A stretch of DNA of 64,000 nucleotides. Origin: Novosphingobium sp. 9U (lineage in GTDB: Bacteria > Pseudomonadota > Alphaproteobacteria > Sphingomonadales > Sphingomonadaceae). Under the pieces are notes generated by a model. That model did not search any database and was not told the DNA's origin. It was given only the letters and a program-made list of their open reading frames with translations. The stretch lies in contig NZ_LR732469.1 of assembly GCF_902506425.1 (NCBI RefSeq), forward strand, positions 2,093,285-2,157,284, read 5' to 3'. Positions 45,091 to 58,840 of the stretch are shown here, one piece after another (position 1 is the stretch's first letter; each line of letters begins with the position of its first letter). The position numbers were made by a program, and so were the translations under genes.

Positions 45091-45151
45091 GAACGTCTCT
45101 TCGCGAACCTGTGCTGTCCGCCAGCCCGACTTTTCAATCGCCCGGCAACCC

Positions 45152-45160
45152 TGTGGATAC
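45152..45160 (-). promoter_or_regulatory. DnaA box (near consensus)
   Basis: TGTGGATAC on the plus strand, GTATCCACA on the minus strand; one mismatch from TTATCCACA. Within oriC. Confidence 0.75.
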
Positions 45161-45274
45161 GCGTGGCATAAACCACGGGAGAGGGCGGGTGACAACTCGA
45201 CAGCGGGATTCCACCCCCACTGCCAGGCATTTGGCGCCACAGTTACGGACAGGGCAGGGCGGTTCTCGACAGCC

Positions 45275-45283
45275 TGGGGATAT
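45275..45283 (-). promoter_or_regulatory. Weak DnaA-like box
   Basis: TGGGGATAT, two mismatches from TGTGGATAA; included because of its oriC setting. Confidence 0.35.
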
Positions 45284-45382
45284 GGCGGACAACCTTTGCT
45301 TGACCGCGCTAGGGTCAGGAGTCGGTCATGGCAGCGGGACTGGCCAGCGCCGGACAAATCGGGCAAGGCGCCGCCGTCCCCA

Positions 45383-45391
45383 GTTTCCACA
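45383..45391 (+). promoter_or_regulatory. DnaA-like box near the AT-rich element
   Basis: GTTTCCACA, two mismatches from TTATCCACA, 23 bp before the AT-rich stretch, the spacing expected of an origin box that helps unwinding. Confidence 0.5.
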
Positions 45392-45453
45392 GGGCCAACA
45401 GACTCCATCATCCTTCTAAGAATCTATTATTATTTAAGTGGGACCAAGCCGCG

Positions 45454-46490: not shown

Positions 46491-46604
46491 CGTCCCGGAC
46501 TTGATCCGGGACCGGGTCCTTCAAGGCGCGATCTGGCGGGAGTGCGCCTTGGCGATAGCTGGCTCGCATTCCGCAACCGGTCCCGGGTCGAGCCCGGGAC
46601 GACG
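46491..46604. repeat. Palindromic repeat, family A copy 1 (CGTCCCGG...CCGGGACG)
   Basis: Arms 46491-46515 (CGTCCCGGACTTGATCC...) and 46577-46604 (inverse, ending CCCGGGACGACG) enclose about 60 bp, filling the hemE-hemJ gap. Related copies at 47109-47223 and 49402-49513. Confidence 0.8.
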
Positions 46605-47108: not shown

Positions 47109-47223
47109 CGTCGTCCCGGATTTGATCCGGGTCCGGTTTCGCCACGGCAAGCGTTCTCGTCGAGGTGCCGTCCAGCAAGCTCGTGAGATGGCGAAACCGG
47201 TCCGGGTCAAGCCCGAGACGACG
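47109..47223. repeat. Palindromic repeat, family A copy 2
   Basis: Arms 47109-47144 (CGTCGTCCCGGATTTGATCC... to TTTCGCCA) and 47189-47223 (TGGCGAAACCGGTCCGGGTC..., inverse). About 35-bp arms, 44-bp centre. In the hemJ-rho gap, upstream of the rho promoter. Confidence 0.8.
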
Positions 47224-47252
47224 CCACGATCTCACACCCTGTCGCGAGTCGA

Positions 47253-53003: not shown

Positions 53004-53273
53004 ATGAAGGTCAATGTCGAGGTGGACTGCTCGCCGGAAGAGGCGCGCCGCTTTCTGGGTCTTCCCGATGTGACGCGCGCGAACGACGTCTATGTCGATG
53101 CGATCACCAAGGCCATGCAGGGTGTCGGCAATGTCGATCAGCTCCAGGACCTGGCCAAGCAGATGGCGCCTATGGGCCAGTTCGGGCTCAAGCTGTTCCA
53201 GCAATTGATGGAAGGTGGCGCGGCCATGGCGATGTCGAAGCCGGGCAACAACCCGAAGCGCGACGACAGCTGA
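53004..53273 (+). CDS. DUF6489 family protein
   Basis: An 89-residue protein, MKVNVEVDCSPEEARRFLGLPDV then a helical ADVYVDAITKAMQGVGNVDQLQDLAKQ-like stretch and a Gln/Met-rich FGLKLFQQLMEGG end. CAGGAGAG ribosome site before ATG 53004. Found in sphingomonads with unknown role; its Ser-Pro-Glu-Glu-Ala N-terminus recalls polyhydroxyalkanoate or membrane-associated small proteins, but I cannot assign one. 28 bp before mnmE. Confidence 0.75.
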   Translation: MKVNVEVDCSPEEARRFLGLPDVTRANDVYVDAITKAMQGVGNVDQLQDLAKQMAPMGQFGLKLFQQLMEGGAAMAMSKPGNNPKRDDS

Positions 53274-53301
53274 CTCCCGAACGAGCCATGTGAACTGCCG
53301 C

Positions 53302-54582
53302 GTGAGTGACACGATCTTCGCTTTGTCCAGCGGGGCGCCACCGGCCGCGATCGGGATCATGCGGATCAGCGGACCGGAGGCAGCCGCGGCCCTGAAGGCG
53401 ATCGCAAGCGAAGTTCCCAAGCCTCGGTTCGCAAGCGTCCGGCGCTTGCATGATGCGCGCGGTGACCAACTCGATCAGGCATTGGTGCTGTGGTTTCCGG
53501 GGCCCGCAACTGCGACTGGCGAAGACCTCGCCGAACTTCATCTACATGGTGGCCGGGCTATCATTGCGGCGGTAGAGCGTGCCTTGGCCGAGATGCCAGG
53601 CCTGCGTCGCGCCGCGCCTGGAGAGTTCACGCGTCGTGCCTTCGCAAACGGCAGGATCGATCTTGCCGAAGCGGAGGGGCTAGCCGATCTCTTGACGGCC
53701 GAGACCGAACTGCAACGCCGCCATGCCTTGGCTCTCGCAAATGGCAGTCTCTCGTCGCGGGTATACGAATGGCGTGACCGGGTCCTGATGCTATCTGCGC
53801 AGGTGGAGGCGGTGCTCGATTTTGGCGACGAGGATGATGTCTCGGACCTTCCCCCGCGATTCGCGGCGCAGGTGGAAGACACCGCCCGAGAGCTAGACAC
53901 TCTCCTCGTCGCGCCAAAAGCCGAGACTCTGCGCGAAGGGTTCCGCGTTGTGCTGGCAGGTCCACCCAACTCGGGAAAAAGTAGCCTGTTCAATCGTTTG
54001 GTCGGTGACGATGCGGCAATCGCGACACCCGTACCAGGAACCACACGCGATGTGCTGTCTCGGCCCGTAGCAATCGATGGCGTGCCGTTCGTCTTTGTCG
54101 ATACTGCCGGACTGCGGGACGCGACCGATGATACTATCGAGGCAATTGGTATTGAGCGCGCGACACAGGAACTGTCACGTGCCGATCTGGTGCTCTGGAT
54201 GGGTCCAGAGGCGGAAGGGCAGGGCGTTCGCTTGTGGGAAGTAGATAGCTTCGCCGATCTGCCAAAGGATGTGTCGAAAGCTACGCCGCGCCATCGCGTA
54301 TCGGCAGCCACAGGTCAGGGCATCGCCGAGCTGCAGAGCGACCTTGTTACCCTCGCCAGACAGGCGCTGCCGGGACCGAGCGATGTTGCTTTAAACCGGC
54401 GCCAGCGTGAGTTGTTGGAGGATGCATCGGCCGCCTTGCACCAATCATCGACAGTGACAAACCCGTTGCTGATCGCCGAGCTGCTCCGTACGGCTCGCGC
54501 GGCTTTCGACCGCCTGCTAGGGCGCGCGGCGACAGAGGACATGCTCGACACCCTCTTCGGTCGATTCTGCATCGGCAAGTGA
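53302..54582 (+). CDS. mnmE: tRNA uridine-5-carboxymethylaminomethyl modification GTPase MnmE
   Basis: With MnmG modifies the wobble uridine of several tRNAs. 426 residues from GTG 53302: N-terminal MSDTIFALSSGAPPAAIGIM, the formyl-THF-binding domain, GTPase G1 GPPNSGKSS (220-228), switch II DTAG, and C-terminal CIGK (423-426), the catalytic tail. GTG 53290 is a second possible start. The stop is directly followed by parS. Confidence 0.95.
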   Translation: MSDTIFALSSGAPPAAIGIMRISGPEAAAALKAIASEVPKPRFASVRRLHDARGDQLDQALVLWFPGPATATGEDLAELHLHGGRAIIAAVERALAEMPGLRRAAPGEFTRRAFANGRIDLAEAEGLADLLTAETELQRRHALALANGSLSSRVYEWRDRVLMLSAQVEAVLDFGDEDDVSDLPPRFAAQVEDTARELDTLLVAPKAETLREGFRVVLAGPPNSGKSSLFNRLVGDDAAIATPVPGTTRDVLSRPVAIDGVPFVFVDTAGLRDATDDTIEAIGIERATQELSRADLVLWMGPEAEGQGVRLWEVDSFADLPKDVSKATPRHRVSAATGQGIAELQSDLVTLARQALPGPSDVALNRRQRELLEDASAALHQSSTVTNPLLIAELLRTARAAFDRLLGRAATEDMLDTLFGRFCIGK

Positions 54583-54598
54583 TGTTCCACGTGGAACA
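54583..54598. other. parS: parS centromere site 1
   Basis: TGTTCCACGTGGAACA, a perfect 16-bp palindrome identical to the alphaproteobacterial parS consensus. Starts immediately after the mnmE stop (54582) and lies before mnmG. ParB loads here and spreads; parA and parB are 2.5 kb downstream. Confidence 0.93.
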
Positions 54599-54643
54599 AG
54601 CATGCGCTTTGACCAGAGCGGAGCGCTGAGTTAAAAGCCAGCC

Positions 54644-56494
54644 ATGCACACATACGATATCGTAGTCGTCGGCGGCGGACATGCCGGCTGCGAAGCGGCC
54701 GCTGTCGCGGCTCGCATGGGAGCACGCGTCGCCCTCATCAACTTCGATCTGAAAACAATCGGCGCGATGAGTTGCAATCCGGCGATTGGCGGTCTCGGCA
54801 AGGGCCATCTCGTGCGTGAGGTCGATGCCTTTGACGGTCTGATCGCACGCGCTGCTGACGCCGCCGCAATCCACTATCGTATGCTCAACCGCTCGAAGGG
54901 GAGTGCCGTTCAGGGCCCGCGTGTCCAGGCCGACCGTGTCTTGTTCAAGGCCGCTATTCAAAACCAGCTGCGTGCGACCAAGGACCTTGATCTGATTGAG
55001 GGTGAAGTCGCAGCGCTGCGGATCGAACATGGCACGGTTCGAGGAATTGAACTCGCCGATGGGCAGGTAATCGACGCGGCTGCGACGATCCTATGCACGG
55101 GAACGTTCTTGGGGGGCACGCTCTTCCGGGGTGAAGAACGCCTGGAAGGAGGCCGTATAGGCGAGGCCTCAGCGCATCGTCTCGCCAGGCAACTGCGCGA
55201 TTATGCACTGCCGATGGCGCGGCTCAAGACAGGCACACCGCCACGTCTTGATGCTCGGACGATCGACTGGTCACGCTTGGCTGAACAACCATCCGATGCG
55301 GAGCCTTGGACGATGTCGGCCATGATTCGCCACAGGACCAATCCGCAGGTGTTCTGCGCGATCACTCGCACTACGCCGCAAACGCATGATGTGATCCGCG
55401 CGAATCTGCATCGGTCACCCCTGTTCAGCGGAGCGATCGGCGCGAGGGGGCCGCGCTACTGCCCCTCGATCGAGGACAAGATCCACCGCTTTGCCGATCG
55501 GGATGGGCACCAGGTCTTCCTGGAACCGGAGGGCCTGCAGACGCACATGGTCTATCCCAACGGCATCAGCACCTCGCTTCCGAGCGACGTGCAATTGCAG
55601 ATGCTGCGCACGATCGAAGGCTTGGAGCAGGTCGAGATGGCGGTGCCGGGCTATGCCGTCGAATACGATCATATCGATCCGCGCGCGTTGCGCTCCACGC
55701 TTGAATTGAAAGACTTACCCGGCCTCTATTGCGCCGGCCAGATCAACGGCACAACCGGCTATGAAGAGGCAGCGGGGCAGGGGCTTGTCGCCGGCATGAG
55801 TGCGGCATGCGCGGTACTCGACCGAGACTTGCCCGCGATCGATCGTTCGAACAGCTACCTTGCGGTGATGATCGATGATCTCACACTGCAAGGTGTCAGT
55901 GAGCCTTACCGCATGCTCACTGCCCGGGCCGAGTACCGGCTACGCCTGCGCGCGAACAATGCTTCCACCCGCCTGACCGACATTGCAAAGAACATCGGCG
56001 CTGTTGGCCAAGAGCGGGCGACATGGTTCGATAAGCGGAAGCAGCACCAAGCGCACGTTGAGAGGCAATTGACGGAGGCGGTCACCGGAGTTGATCTCGC
56101 TGCGGAGGGGTTGCCGGTGCGGTCAGACCTGGGCGCCATGCCACTTCGTGAGTGGATGCGCTTCGATGGTGTGGATCTGACGTCCGTAGCCAAATGGCTG
56201 CCTAGCATTCCAATCTGTGACGGTAACCTGTTGGAGGAGATTGGCGAAGATCTTGCCTATGCTCCTTATCTTGAGAGGCAAGAGCGCGAACTCCGCGATC
56301 TTCGTGCGAGTGAGGCACTACGGCTTGAAGATGCTTTTCCCTACGCTGAGGTTCCGGGTCTCTCGAACGAGATGGTGGAACGTCTCTCCCGTGTTCGGCC
56401 GGAGACGCTTGCAGCGGCAGGACGGGTTCCCGGAGTCACGCCCGCGGCGCTGTCGGCCTTGCTGGTCCATGCGCGACGGAAGGTCGCAGCATGA
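54644..56494 (+). CDS. mnmG: tRNA uridine-5-carboxymethylaminomethyl modification enzyme MnmG
   Basis: FAD-dependent partner of MnmE. 616 residues: [10 protein letters not shown] (10-19, FAD), [35 protein letters not shown], and the C-terminal helical domain with [18 protein letters not shown]. Standard length. The stop overlaps the rsmG start by 4 bp (ATGA). Confidence 0.97.
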
Positions 56495-57120
56495 GTGAGG
56501 ATGAGGCGCAGGAGACGGTCGCAACTATGGCGACCGATTCCGCGCAGATGGAAATGCTCTCGCGTTTTGTCGATCTGCTGGTGGAGGAGAACGAGCGTCA
56601 GAACGTTGTAGCGCGGGCTACTCTGCCACTAATTTGGGAGCGGCACATCCTCGACAGTGCACAGCTTCTCCATCATGTTCCACGTGAAACATCGACTTGG
56701 CTTGACCTCGGAACCGGCGCCGGCTTCCCAGGGCTTATCATCGCCACACTCAGGCCCAATTGGAAAGTCACCCTTGTCGAGTCGCGGACAAGACGCGTTC
56801 AGTGGCTCGCACGAGCAGTGAACGAACTGCAACTCGCTAACGTGGTGATCGAAGGTCGTCGGCTGGAACTTGTCGACACAAGCCCATCCGACGTGATCTC
56901 GGCACGTGCATTCGCTCCATTGACCGATCTGCTCAAGTTATCCGCGCGCTTTTCGACAGCGGCTACATACTGGGTCTTGCCGAAAGGAAGGTCCGCAGCG
57001 CAAGAAGTGCATGACCTTCACGGATGGCAGCATGCGTTCCACGTGGAACAATCAATGACAGATCCCGAGTCTGGGATAGTTGTCGGTCACTTGTATGGCC
57101 GGAAAGGCGCCGCAGCATGA
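56491..57120 (+). CDS. rsmG: 16S rRNA m7G527 methyltransferase RsmG
   Basis: Methylates G527 of 16S rRNA. 209 residues: [26 protein letters not shown] (SAM), [24 protein letters not shown]. Overlaps mnmG and parA by ATGA. Contains two parS sites (56676 and 57035) inside the reading frame, so its codons are constrained by the centromere. Confidence 0.95.
56676..56691. other. parS: parS centromere site 2 (inside rsmG)
   Basis: TGTTCCACGTGAAACA, 15 of 16 positions match the palindromic consensus (one A/G change). Read in rsmG as HVPRET. Confidence 0.88.
57035..57050. other. parS: parS centromere site 3 (inside rsmG)
   Basis: CGTTCCACGTGGAACA, 15 of 16 positions. Read in rsmG as FHVEQ, a different frame from site 2. 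It lies 67 bp before the parA start. Confidence 0.88.
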
Positions 57121-57893
57121 TCCGCATCGCTATCGCCAATCAGAAGGGCGGAGTGGGCAAGACGACCACCGCGATCAACGTTTCGACCGCGCTGGCGGCG
57201 ACGGGATGGAAGACCCTGCTCATCGACCTCGACCCGCAAGGTAACGCGTCAACGGGCATCGGGGTAGGAGCTTCGCAACGCGAGCGGTCGAGCTACGACG
57301 TACTCGTGGATCAAGCTTCTCTCGAAAGCTGCATCATGCCCACGCCGATTCCCAAGCTGGACTTGTGCCCGGCCACAGTGGATCTGTCCGGCGCCGAAGT
57401 GGAATTGGTCGGCGCCGAGGATCGCGCCTATCGTTTGCAAAAGGCGCTGAGGCCCGATCTCGGCTACGATGTTTGCCTGATCGACTGCCCACCATCCTTG
57501 GGCCTGCTGACCCTGAACGCGATGACGGCGGCCGATACGCTGCTCGTACCTCTGCAATGCGAATTCTTCGCCCTCGAAGGGCTGAGCCAATTGCTGACGA
57601 CGGTCGAGCGGGTGCAGCAGCGGTTCAACGCCGATCTCGGCATCATCGGCATTGCGCTCACCATGTTCGATCGACGCAATCGCTTGACCGATCAGGTCGC
57701 CGAGGATGTGCGCTCGTGCCTGGGGAAGCTGGTGTTCGAAACGACGATCCCGCGTAATGTGCGCTTGTCCGAGGCGCCGAGCCATGGCGTACCGGCGCTG
57801 ATCTATGATCACGCCTGTGCAGGGAGCCGGGCTTACATCGCGCTCGCTAGGGAGCTGATTACGCGCTTGCCTGAAGAGAGGAAGGCCGCATGA
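57117..57893 (+). CDS. parA: Chromosome-partitioning ATPase ParA
   Basis: Walker-type ATPase forming dynamic gradients that move ParB-parS. 258 residues from ATG 57117: deviant Walker A KGGVGKTT (10-17), DLDPQGNAST, LIDCPPSLG and a C-terminal ALIYDHACAGS. Overlaps rsmG (ATGA) and parB (4 bp). A frame reaching 57024 is open but lies within rsmG. Confidence 0.97.
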   Translation: MIRIAIANQKGGVGKTTTAINVSTALAATGWKTLLIDLDPQGNASTGIGVGASQRERSSYDVLVDQASLESCIMPTPIPKLDLCPATVDLSGAEVELVGAEDRAYRLQKALRPDLGYDVCLIDCPPSLGLLTLNAMTAADTLLVPLQCEFFALEGLSQLLTTVERVQQRFNADLGIIGIALTMFDRRNRLTDQVAEDVRSCLGKLVFETTIPRNVRLSEAPSHGVPALIYDHACAGSRAYIALARELITRLPEERKAA

Positions 57894-58840
57894 GCGAGGA
57901 AGTCGGTGTGACGACCGCACCGGTCGCCAAGTCCAAGGCCAAGGGCCTGGGCCGTGGGCTGGGAGCACTGCTCGGTGAGACGCGGCGAGAGGAGCCGGTT
58001 GCGACGGGCGCAAGTTCACCCGCAAGCGACGAACCCAGATCGCCGGGGCTGGCGCTTCTCCCGGTGGCCTTGATATCGCCCGATCCTCAGCAGCCGCGCC
58101 GTCATTTCGATGAGGACGCGCTGGACGAACTGGCAGCATCGATCGCGCAGCGGGGAGTGATCCAGCCAGTCGTCGTTCGCGCGCTAGACCAAGGCCGCTA
58201 TCAACTCGTTGCCGGTGAGCGGCGCTGGAGAGCAGCGCAGAAGGCGCAGCTGCACGAGATCCCGGCGCTCATCCGCGACCTAAGTGACCGCGATGTCATG
58301 GCGCTGGCTCTCATCGAAAACCTGCAGCGCGAGGACCTTAATCCGATCGAGGAGGCCCGAGCTTACCACCGGCTGGCCGAGAGCGAGGGGCTCACTCAGG
58401 CCGAGATCGCCAAGATGGTCGACAAGAGCCGCAGCCACGTGGCGAACCTGCAGCGGCTGCTGGCTCTGCCTGAAACGGTGATGGACCTGGTCGAGCGAGG
58501 TTCGCTGTCGATGGGTCATGCACGCGCGCTGATCGGCTCAGACGATGCCGAAGAGATTGCGCAAGCGGCCGTTGCTAAGCAGATGTCCGTGCGCGAGGTC
58601 GAAAAGCTGATCCGCCGCAAGTCCAAGGGCGAGGCTGCGCCGCGCCGCGCGCGCACTGCCCGCAACTCGAGCGACGATGCCGACATCGTCGCCGTCCAGG
58701 GGCATCTTGAAGAATTTCTTGGCTTGCCTGTCCGTATCCAGAGTGACGCCGATCCGAAATCGGGGCTCGTCACGATCAAGTATACGACCTTGGACCAACT
58801 CGACTTGATCTGTCAAAGACTGACCGGTGGCTCGATCTAA
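57890..58840 (+). CDS. parB: Chromosome-partitioning protein ParB
   Basis: CTP-dependent parS-binding clamp. 316 residues: KGLGRGLGALLGE at the start, box with GERRWRAAQKAQ and LIENLQREDLNPIEEARAYHRL, helix-turn-helix TQAEIAKMVDKSRSHVANLQRLL, and a C-terminal dimerisation domain. Overlaps parA by ATGA. A hairpin spans the stop codon. Confidence 0.97.
   Translation: MSEEVGVTTAPVAKSKAKGLGRGLGALLGETRREEPVATGASSPASDEPRSPGLALLPVALISPDPQQPRRHFDEDALDELAASIAQRGVIQPVVVRALDQGRYQLVAGERRWRAAQKAQLHEIPALIRDLSDRDVMALALIENLQREDLNPIEEARAYHRLAESEGLTQAEIAKMVDKSRSHVANLQRLLALPETVMDLVERGSLSMGHARALIGSDDAEEIAQAAVAKQMSVREVEKLIRRKSKGEAAPRRARTARNSSDDADIVAVQGHLEEFLGLPVRIQSDADPKSGLVTIKYTTLDQLDLICQRLTGGSI

Follow-up and report, generated by a model that had tools for sequence, protein, structure and literature searches.

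A 64-kb stretch of the Novosphingobium sp. 9U genome (hereafter, the window) contains mnmE, mnmG, rsmG, parA and parB in a row. Three 16-bp palindromes, named sites A, C and D, lie upstream of parA. The letter B is used for a place in rsmG at which relatives possess a site of the same kind. The features are as follows.

45092-45453, no strand: likely oriC, a gap bounded by hemE and a PpsR-type gene (inferred starts of both)
53215-54582, + strand: mnmE (NF003661, 490.6 bits); the true start is probably downstream (family match from residue 31)
54583-54598, no strand: putative parS site A, a perfect 16-bp palindrome (16/16) directly 3′ of the mnmE stop codon
54644-56494, + strand: mnmG (TIGR00136, 715.1 bits)
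56491-57120, + strand: rsmG, 16S rRNA (guanine527-N7)-methyltransferase (TIGR00138, 126.9 bits; cut-off 99.5), which carries sites C and D
56532-56547, + strand: homologue of the old B place, at about codons 14-19 of rsmG; this genome has no parS here
56676-56691, no strand: putative parS site C, TGTTCCACGTGAAACA, in rsmG codons 62-67, read V-P-R-E-T; 15/16
57035-57050, no strand: putative parS site D, CGTTCCACGTGGAACA, in rsmG codons 182-187, read A-F-H-V-E-Q; 15/16
57117-57893, + strand: parA (Pfam AAA_31, 2e-60)
57890-58840, + strand: parB (ParB_N, HTH_ParB and ParB_C; TIGR00180, 198.9 bits; cut-off 58.45)

The 64-kb window was scanned with TGTTCCACGTGGAACA. Site A had no mismatch to this sequence and sites C and D had one each. 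With the degenerate form TGTTYCACGTGRAACA, the mismatches of A, C and D were 0, 0 and 1, respectively. Position 1 of site D is C in this genome. No further match to TGTTCCACGTGGAACA with three or fewer mismatches was present anywhere in the window. The original prediction had given the same coordinates and scores, namely 54583 (16/16), 56676 (15/16) and 57035 (15/16), and had described parS sites clustered around mnmG-rsmG. The locus was right, but the exact arrangement differs: one site lies between mnmE and mnmG, and the other two lie within the rsmG ORF. The location of sites C and D within the rsmG coding sequence and the abutting of site A on the mnmE stop codon were not part of that prediction. 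All three sites had been placed within 2.5 kb upstream of parAB, and the measured distances to parA (57117) agree with this: 2.5 kb for A, 0.44 kb for C and 0.08 kb for D.

In shuffled windows, the mean number of matches was 0.14, and three matches were reached in 0 of 100 shuffles. We also scanned the whole genome (4,636,195 bases, 4.64 Mb, in 75 contigs). Only three places were found within two mismatches of TGTTCCACGTGGAACA; these were sites A, C and D, all less than 2.6 kb upstream of parA, and an equal density of the motif elsewhere in the genome was not observed. When the bases are treated as independent, the numbers expected by chance for the genome are 0.026 at one or fewer mismatches and 0.67 at two or fewer. 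The original observation is confirmed by these scans. When up to three mismatches were allowed, 12 places were found (nine with exactly three), and a reversed-pattern control gave 25 places.

The oriC of alphaproteobacteria is often beside hemE. From the gene context, oriC is likely to be in the gap between hemE and the PpsR-type gene (45092-45453), and the 40-mer with the highest A+T content in the window is found in this gap. Sites A, C and D are 9.1-12.0 kb from the hemE gap; the original prediction had given about 9-12 kb from a proposed oriC. Placement of oriC by DnaA boxes or GC skew was dropped because the boxes were not above the chance level (4 within one mismatch versus 2.94 expected) and the skew is locally weak. 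By eye, palindromic intergenic repeats resembling GTCCCGGACTTGATCCGGGAC were seen at 46497-46600 and 47110-47225, where they flank the gene after hemE.

Sites within rsmG in the Sphingomonadaceae

In a draw of 149 Sphingomonadaceae genomes, 145 contained a match with two or fewer mismatches. The number per genome ranged from 0 to 14 and was mostly 2-5, chance hits included. The reversed-pattern control gave 0-5 matches per genome in the same draw. We compared 118 rsmG loci: 100 from this draw, 17 from named organisms, which may duplicate species of the others, and that of the window. The nearest named relative of the window's genome is Novosphingobium chloroacetimidivorans (L011). The gene order mnmE-mnmG-rsmG-parA-parB was observed in 113 of the 118 loci, and the other five have the same order without an mnmE hit. 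Site A was found in the mnmE-mnmG gap of 112 loci. Within the gene, a site was called when TGTTYCACGTGRAACA occurred in frame in rsmG with two or fewer mismatches. These sites fall at three homologous alignment columns, with one phase each: B in 48, C in 51 and D in 79 of the 118 loci. Site B is near rsmG codon 17, and its alignment column (column 80) corresponds to residue 17 of the window RsmG. Four other in-frame sites were found outside these columns.

The loci carried C and D (50), B only (36), D only (17), B and D (12), C only (1) or none of the three (2; L111 and L113). Thus, 70 rows lack B, and 68 of these possess C and/or D. The median spacing was 2108 bp for A-C (2081-2169, n = 51), 362 bp for C-D (359-383, n = 50), 1952.5 bp for A-B (1781-2093, n = 44) and 509 bp for B-D (503-521, n = 12).

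The matches in rsmG might be by-products of peptides that the enzyme requires (V-S-R-E-T and F-H-V-E-Q), and site A alone would then be a real centromere site. These peptides are well conserved where they are present. Furthermore, H-V at the C-terminal strand may suit RsmG, and parS-like sites occur at or near this strand in two distant loci (L237 and L350, described below). In the codon test, rows were picked by the peptide alone and their codons were compared with usage in neighbouring genes of the same locus. All four parS codons were used in 91 of the 93 rows with the B peptide (expected, 0.23; exceptions, L229 and L241). The parS codons were also used in 47 of 47 rows with the C peptide (expected, 0.06) and in 79 of 80 rows with the D peptide (expected, 5.96; exception, L129). 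At the residue level, rows with site B carry Ser (77) or Pro (21) and Glu (90) or Gly (8), rows with site C carry Pro (36) or Ser (15) and Glu (40) or Gly (11), and few other residues are seen at either site (e.g. Arg/His, 4 at each). Rows with site D carry Glu (71) or Lys (8). Thus, the swaps in site-bearing rows are almost only those that the degeneracy of parS allows (Ser/Pro, Glu/Gly and Glu/Lys). The range of residues in these rows is partly set by the definition of the site, but the codon test with peptide-chosen rows is free of this effect. In family rows without a site, the residues at these positions are scattered. Because the codon choice is far from usage and the residues are scattered where a site is absent, selection on a DNA signal, not on the enzyme, seems to set the RsmG residues at the sites.

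In an AlphaFold model of the window RsmG (mean pLDDT, 96.9), the B place (residues 14-19) comprises a loop (12-16) and the start of a helix (17-36), C is at the end of helix 42-62 and in the following loop, and D is in strand 184-187. The three places are away in sequence from the invariant G74/G76/G78 of RsmG. This separation, the codon choice, the varied residues where no site is present and the tracking of parS wobble by the Ser/Pro and Glu/Gly swaps all argue against by-products of the peptides. So does site B of L241, where V-S-R-E-T is kept around another core by synonymous codons, together with Ala201 in ParB. We therefore consider the by-product explanation extremely improbable; conservation of RsmG peptides as the cause of the matches was rejected on the grounds of codon use and residue scatter.

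Age and probable turnover of the sites

The outgroup consisted of 60 loci, one per alphaproteobacterial family, and rsmG was found in 56 of them. Site B was present in 50 of these 56 genes, and C and D were present in none (0/56 each). A joint alignment with the outgroup confirmed that the sites fall at three homologous codon positions, with one phase each. Site A, at 600 bp or less upstream of mnmG, was found in 49 of the 60 loci. In each of the six rows without B (L209, L212, L213, L225, L237 and L244), one or more other parS-like sites lie between mnmE and parA. In a further draw, the genomes of which are partly shared with the earlier samples, B was present in 15 of 21 alphaproteobacterial rows, and of the six without B, four are from outside the Sphingomonadaceae and two belong to this family (G086 and the genome of the window). 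Altogether, B, C or D is kept in 166 of 174 rows (118 family and 56 outgroup), and C and D were found in Sphingomonadaceae only among the rows compared. From this outgroup distribution, A and B look like an old alphaproteobacterial pair, and C and D look derived within Sphingomonadaceae. An origin of B older than the Alphaproteobacteria was rejected because the 29 non-alphaproteobacterial rsmG rows compared (from 56 with a match) all lacked B.

Two rows far from Sphingomonadaceae have a parS-like site in rsmG close to D: one alignment column from D in L350, a non-alphaproteobacterium, and two columns from D in L237 of the outgroup. These are perhaps cases of independent use of the same RsmG strand, so sites may have arisen at the D place on more than one occasion.

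Site C reads V-[S/P]-R-[E/G]-T, which is identical to B, in the same frame and 48 codons downstream of B. The idea that C is a misaligned B was rejected on three grounds: 48 window residues separate the columns of B and C, other residues occupy the B column in every one of the 51 C rows, and the two places belong to different parts of the RsmG model (residues 14-19 versus 62-67). In a FastTree tree of MnmG and ParA (174 rows), all 51 C rows fall into one 58-row clade (SH-like support, 100), which includes the window's genome, and B is present in none of the clade. Because C is restricted to this one clade, the mutual exclusion of B and C is in effect one event. Site C requires at least 8 changes on the tree, D at least 6 and B at least 12. 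The eight changes for C fit one gain and seven losses, and such counts do not distinguish gain from loss. Rows with both B and D lie outside the C clade; therefore, D probably arose before C.

ParB residues and the site core

Solved ParB structures, among them Caulobacter ParB 6t1f, can be aligned with the window ParB. According to PMC7383237, residue 201 of ParB bears on position 6 of the site; in the contrast between ParB and Noc, G201 corresponds to parS and R201 to NBS (C6), and the Noc residues at positions 173, 179, 184 and 201 are Q, K, K and R. In this numbering, the window ParB possesses R173, L179, A184 and G201, which are of the parS type and not of the Noc type. It also possesses Q162, K171, S172, N178 and R204. 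The palindromes could be NBS sites of a Noc-type protein, and the window ParB does give 223.5 bits with the Noc model TIGR04285; this score is below the cut-off of 315. The combination of Q173, R201 and K at 179 or 184, which marks Noc/NBS, is absent from the window ParB, and the sites have G at position 1 (site D: C) and A at position 6. NBS sites are therefore scarcely conceivable here.

Both R173 and G201 are present in 118 of 118 family ParBs, and G201 is present in 53 of 54 outgroup ParBs. Position 170, given in PMC7383237 as a conserved parS-contacting glycine, is D in the window ParB and in 52 of 118 family ParBs; G is present in 26 of 118 family and 51 of 54 outgroup ParBs.

The outgroup ParB without G201 is that of L241, which has A201. 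In this locus, A and B are both TGTTTCGCGCGAAACA, and V-S-R-E-T is kept at B via synonymous codons. In its genus (g199 of family f109; L241 and L255-L265), A201 was found in 11 of 11 ParBs. Ten sites are visible in g199, at the same location as in L241 (1389-1407 bp upstream of parB); none has A at position 6, where G, T or C is found instead. In other genera of f109, G201 was found in 10 ParBs, and the four visible sites all have A6. One further match in f109 (L276) is probably another protein. In two f109 genomes (G342 and G344), neither site pattern was found within one mismatch. At the sequence level, the co-change of site core and ParB residue 201 in g199 ties the rsmG-embedded site (in the outgroup, site B) to ParB.

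This co-change also bears on the idea that another CACGTG-binding regulator uses the palindromes, or that they fold into an RNA hairpin in an mnmE-mnmG-rsmG-par mRNA. The location of the palindromes within one row of co-directional genes is compatible with either. However, three sites in a whole genome are few for a regulator, the core co-varies with residue 201 of ParB, which is reported to read the changed base, and the palindromes match published parS. ParB of the alphaproteobacterium Hyphomonas neptunium bound TGTTTCACGTGAAACA in vitro (PMC6650430). A regulator or hairpin is thus very unlikely.

Proposed role of the sites and related repeats

We conclude that, very probably, A, C and D serve the genome's own ParABS system as its chromosomal parS (centromere) sites, C and D are dual-coding, and B was lost and C arose within the clade. 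The parS assignment of the original prediction is supported by the sequence of the sites, their rarity in the genome, the adjacency of parAB, recurrence in the family, the ParB residues and the outgroup co-change. Sequence data could not make this assignment stronger, and it is unremarkable in kind.

ParB loads at parS, closes with CTP and slides outward. ParA would then move the region that ParB covers towards the daughter half; this region is about 9-12 kb from the likely oriC. Sites C and D would serve twice, as ParB targets and as rsmG codons. The ancestral pair would have been A, after mnmE, and B, at about rsmG codon 17. In Sphingomonadaceae, D would have arisen at the C-terminal strand of rsmG; in the clade of the window's genome, B would have been lost and C would have arisen 48 codons downstream, and D may have buffered the loss of B. 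The comparisons directly show the sites and where they lie, how they are conserved, the selection at codon level and the distribution over clades; binding by ParB, the role in segregation and the order of gain and loss are what we infer from them.

It is conceivable, although we lean against it, that rsmG specifically holds the alphaproteobacterial centromere. A ParB loading site would be kept at one or another of three codon positions tolerated by RsmG, a decayed old site would be replaced de novo in rsmG, and some feature of rsmG (its fixed spacing to A, or its transcription) would matter to the centromere's function. If this is true, chromosome segregation has rewritten an rRNA methyltransferase.

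In Caulobacter crescentus, parS sites lie within essential or high-fitness-cost genes (PMC5815017). Its sites, clustered like those of the window, lie about 8 kb from the origin and number at least five and up to seven, in contrast to three here. The main text of that paper does not contain gidA or gidB, and we found in it no conservation or replacement of sites within genes. In H. neptunium, the parS sites are also upstream of parAB, which is about 7 kb from hemE, but there are two sites instead of three, as far as described in PMC6650430. In the literature on parS and ParB that we searched, largely outside subscription journals, we found neither conservation or replacement of parS within genes nor a paper joining parS sites with rsmG; a 2007 survey by Livny and colleagues may list such positions. 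Genic parS as such is already known; what deserves attention is that these sites lie within a gene at fixed codons and appear to have been replaced. The presence of B at the same rsmG codons in 50 of 56 alphaproteobacterial families would clearly exemplify how a DNA-binding site can dictate the sequence of a protein. In one clade, one centromere site appears to be replaced by another in the same gene, and the turnover of a bacterial centromere may thus be traceable base by base. A site at a fixed place in a gene could also serve as a convenient readout when ParB specificity changes, which is suggested by the A201 lineages. Besides the G201 versus R201 contrast of PMC7383237, these lineages are a further natural state of this residue and possibly a further natural ParB specificity.

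Two other alphaproteobacterial genomes, G401 (L280 and L286) and G216 (L281, L287, L293 and L296), also encode ParB with A201. Within one mismatch, TGTTTCNCGNGAAACA gave 148 matches in G401 and 155 in G216, and the matches listed come from several contigs in these genomes. In G401, the matches partly form arrays with a spacing of 33-37 bp, and canonical cores are still common there. No match was found in G313 (same family as G216, A201), and four were found in G258 (same family as G401, G201). A scan of 385 genomes for non-A cores gave two further genomes with one hit each. The repeats of G401 and G216 possibly represent many-centromere chromosomes or a parS-like repeat.
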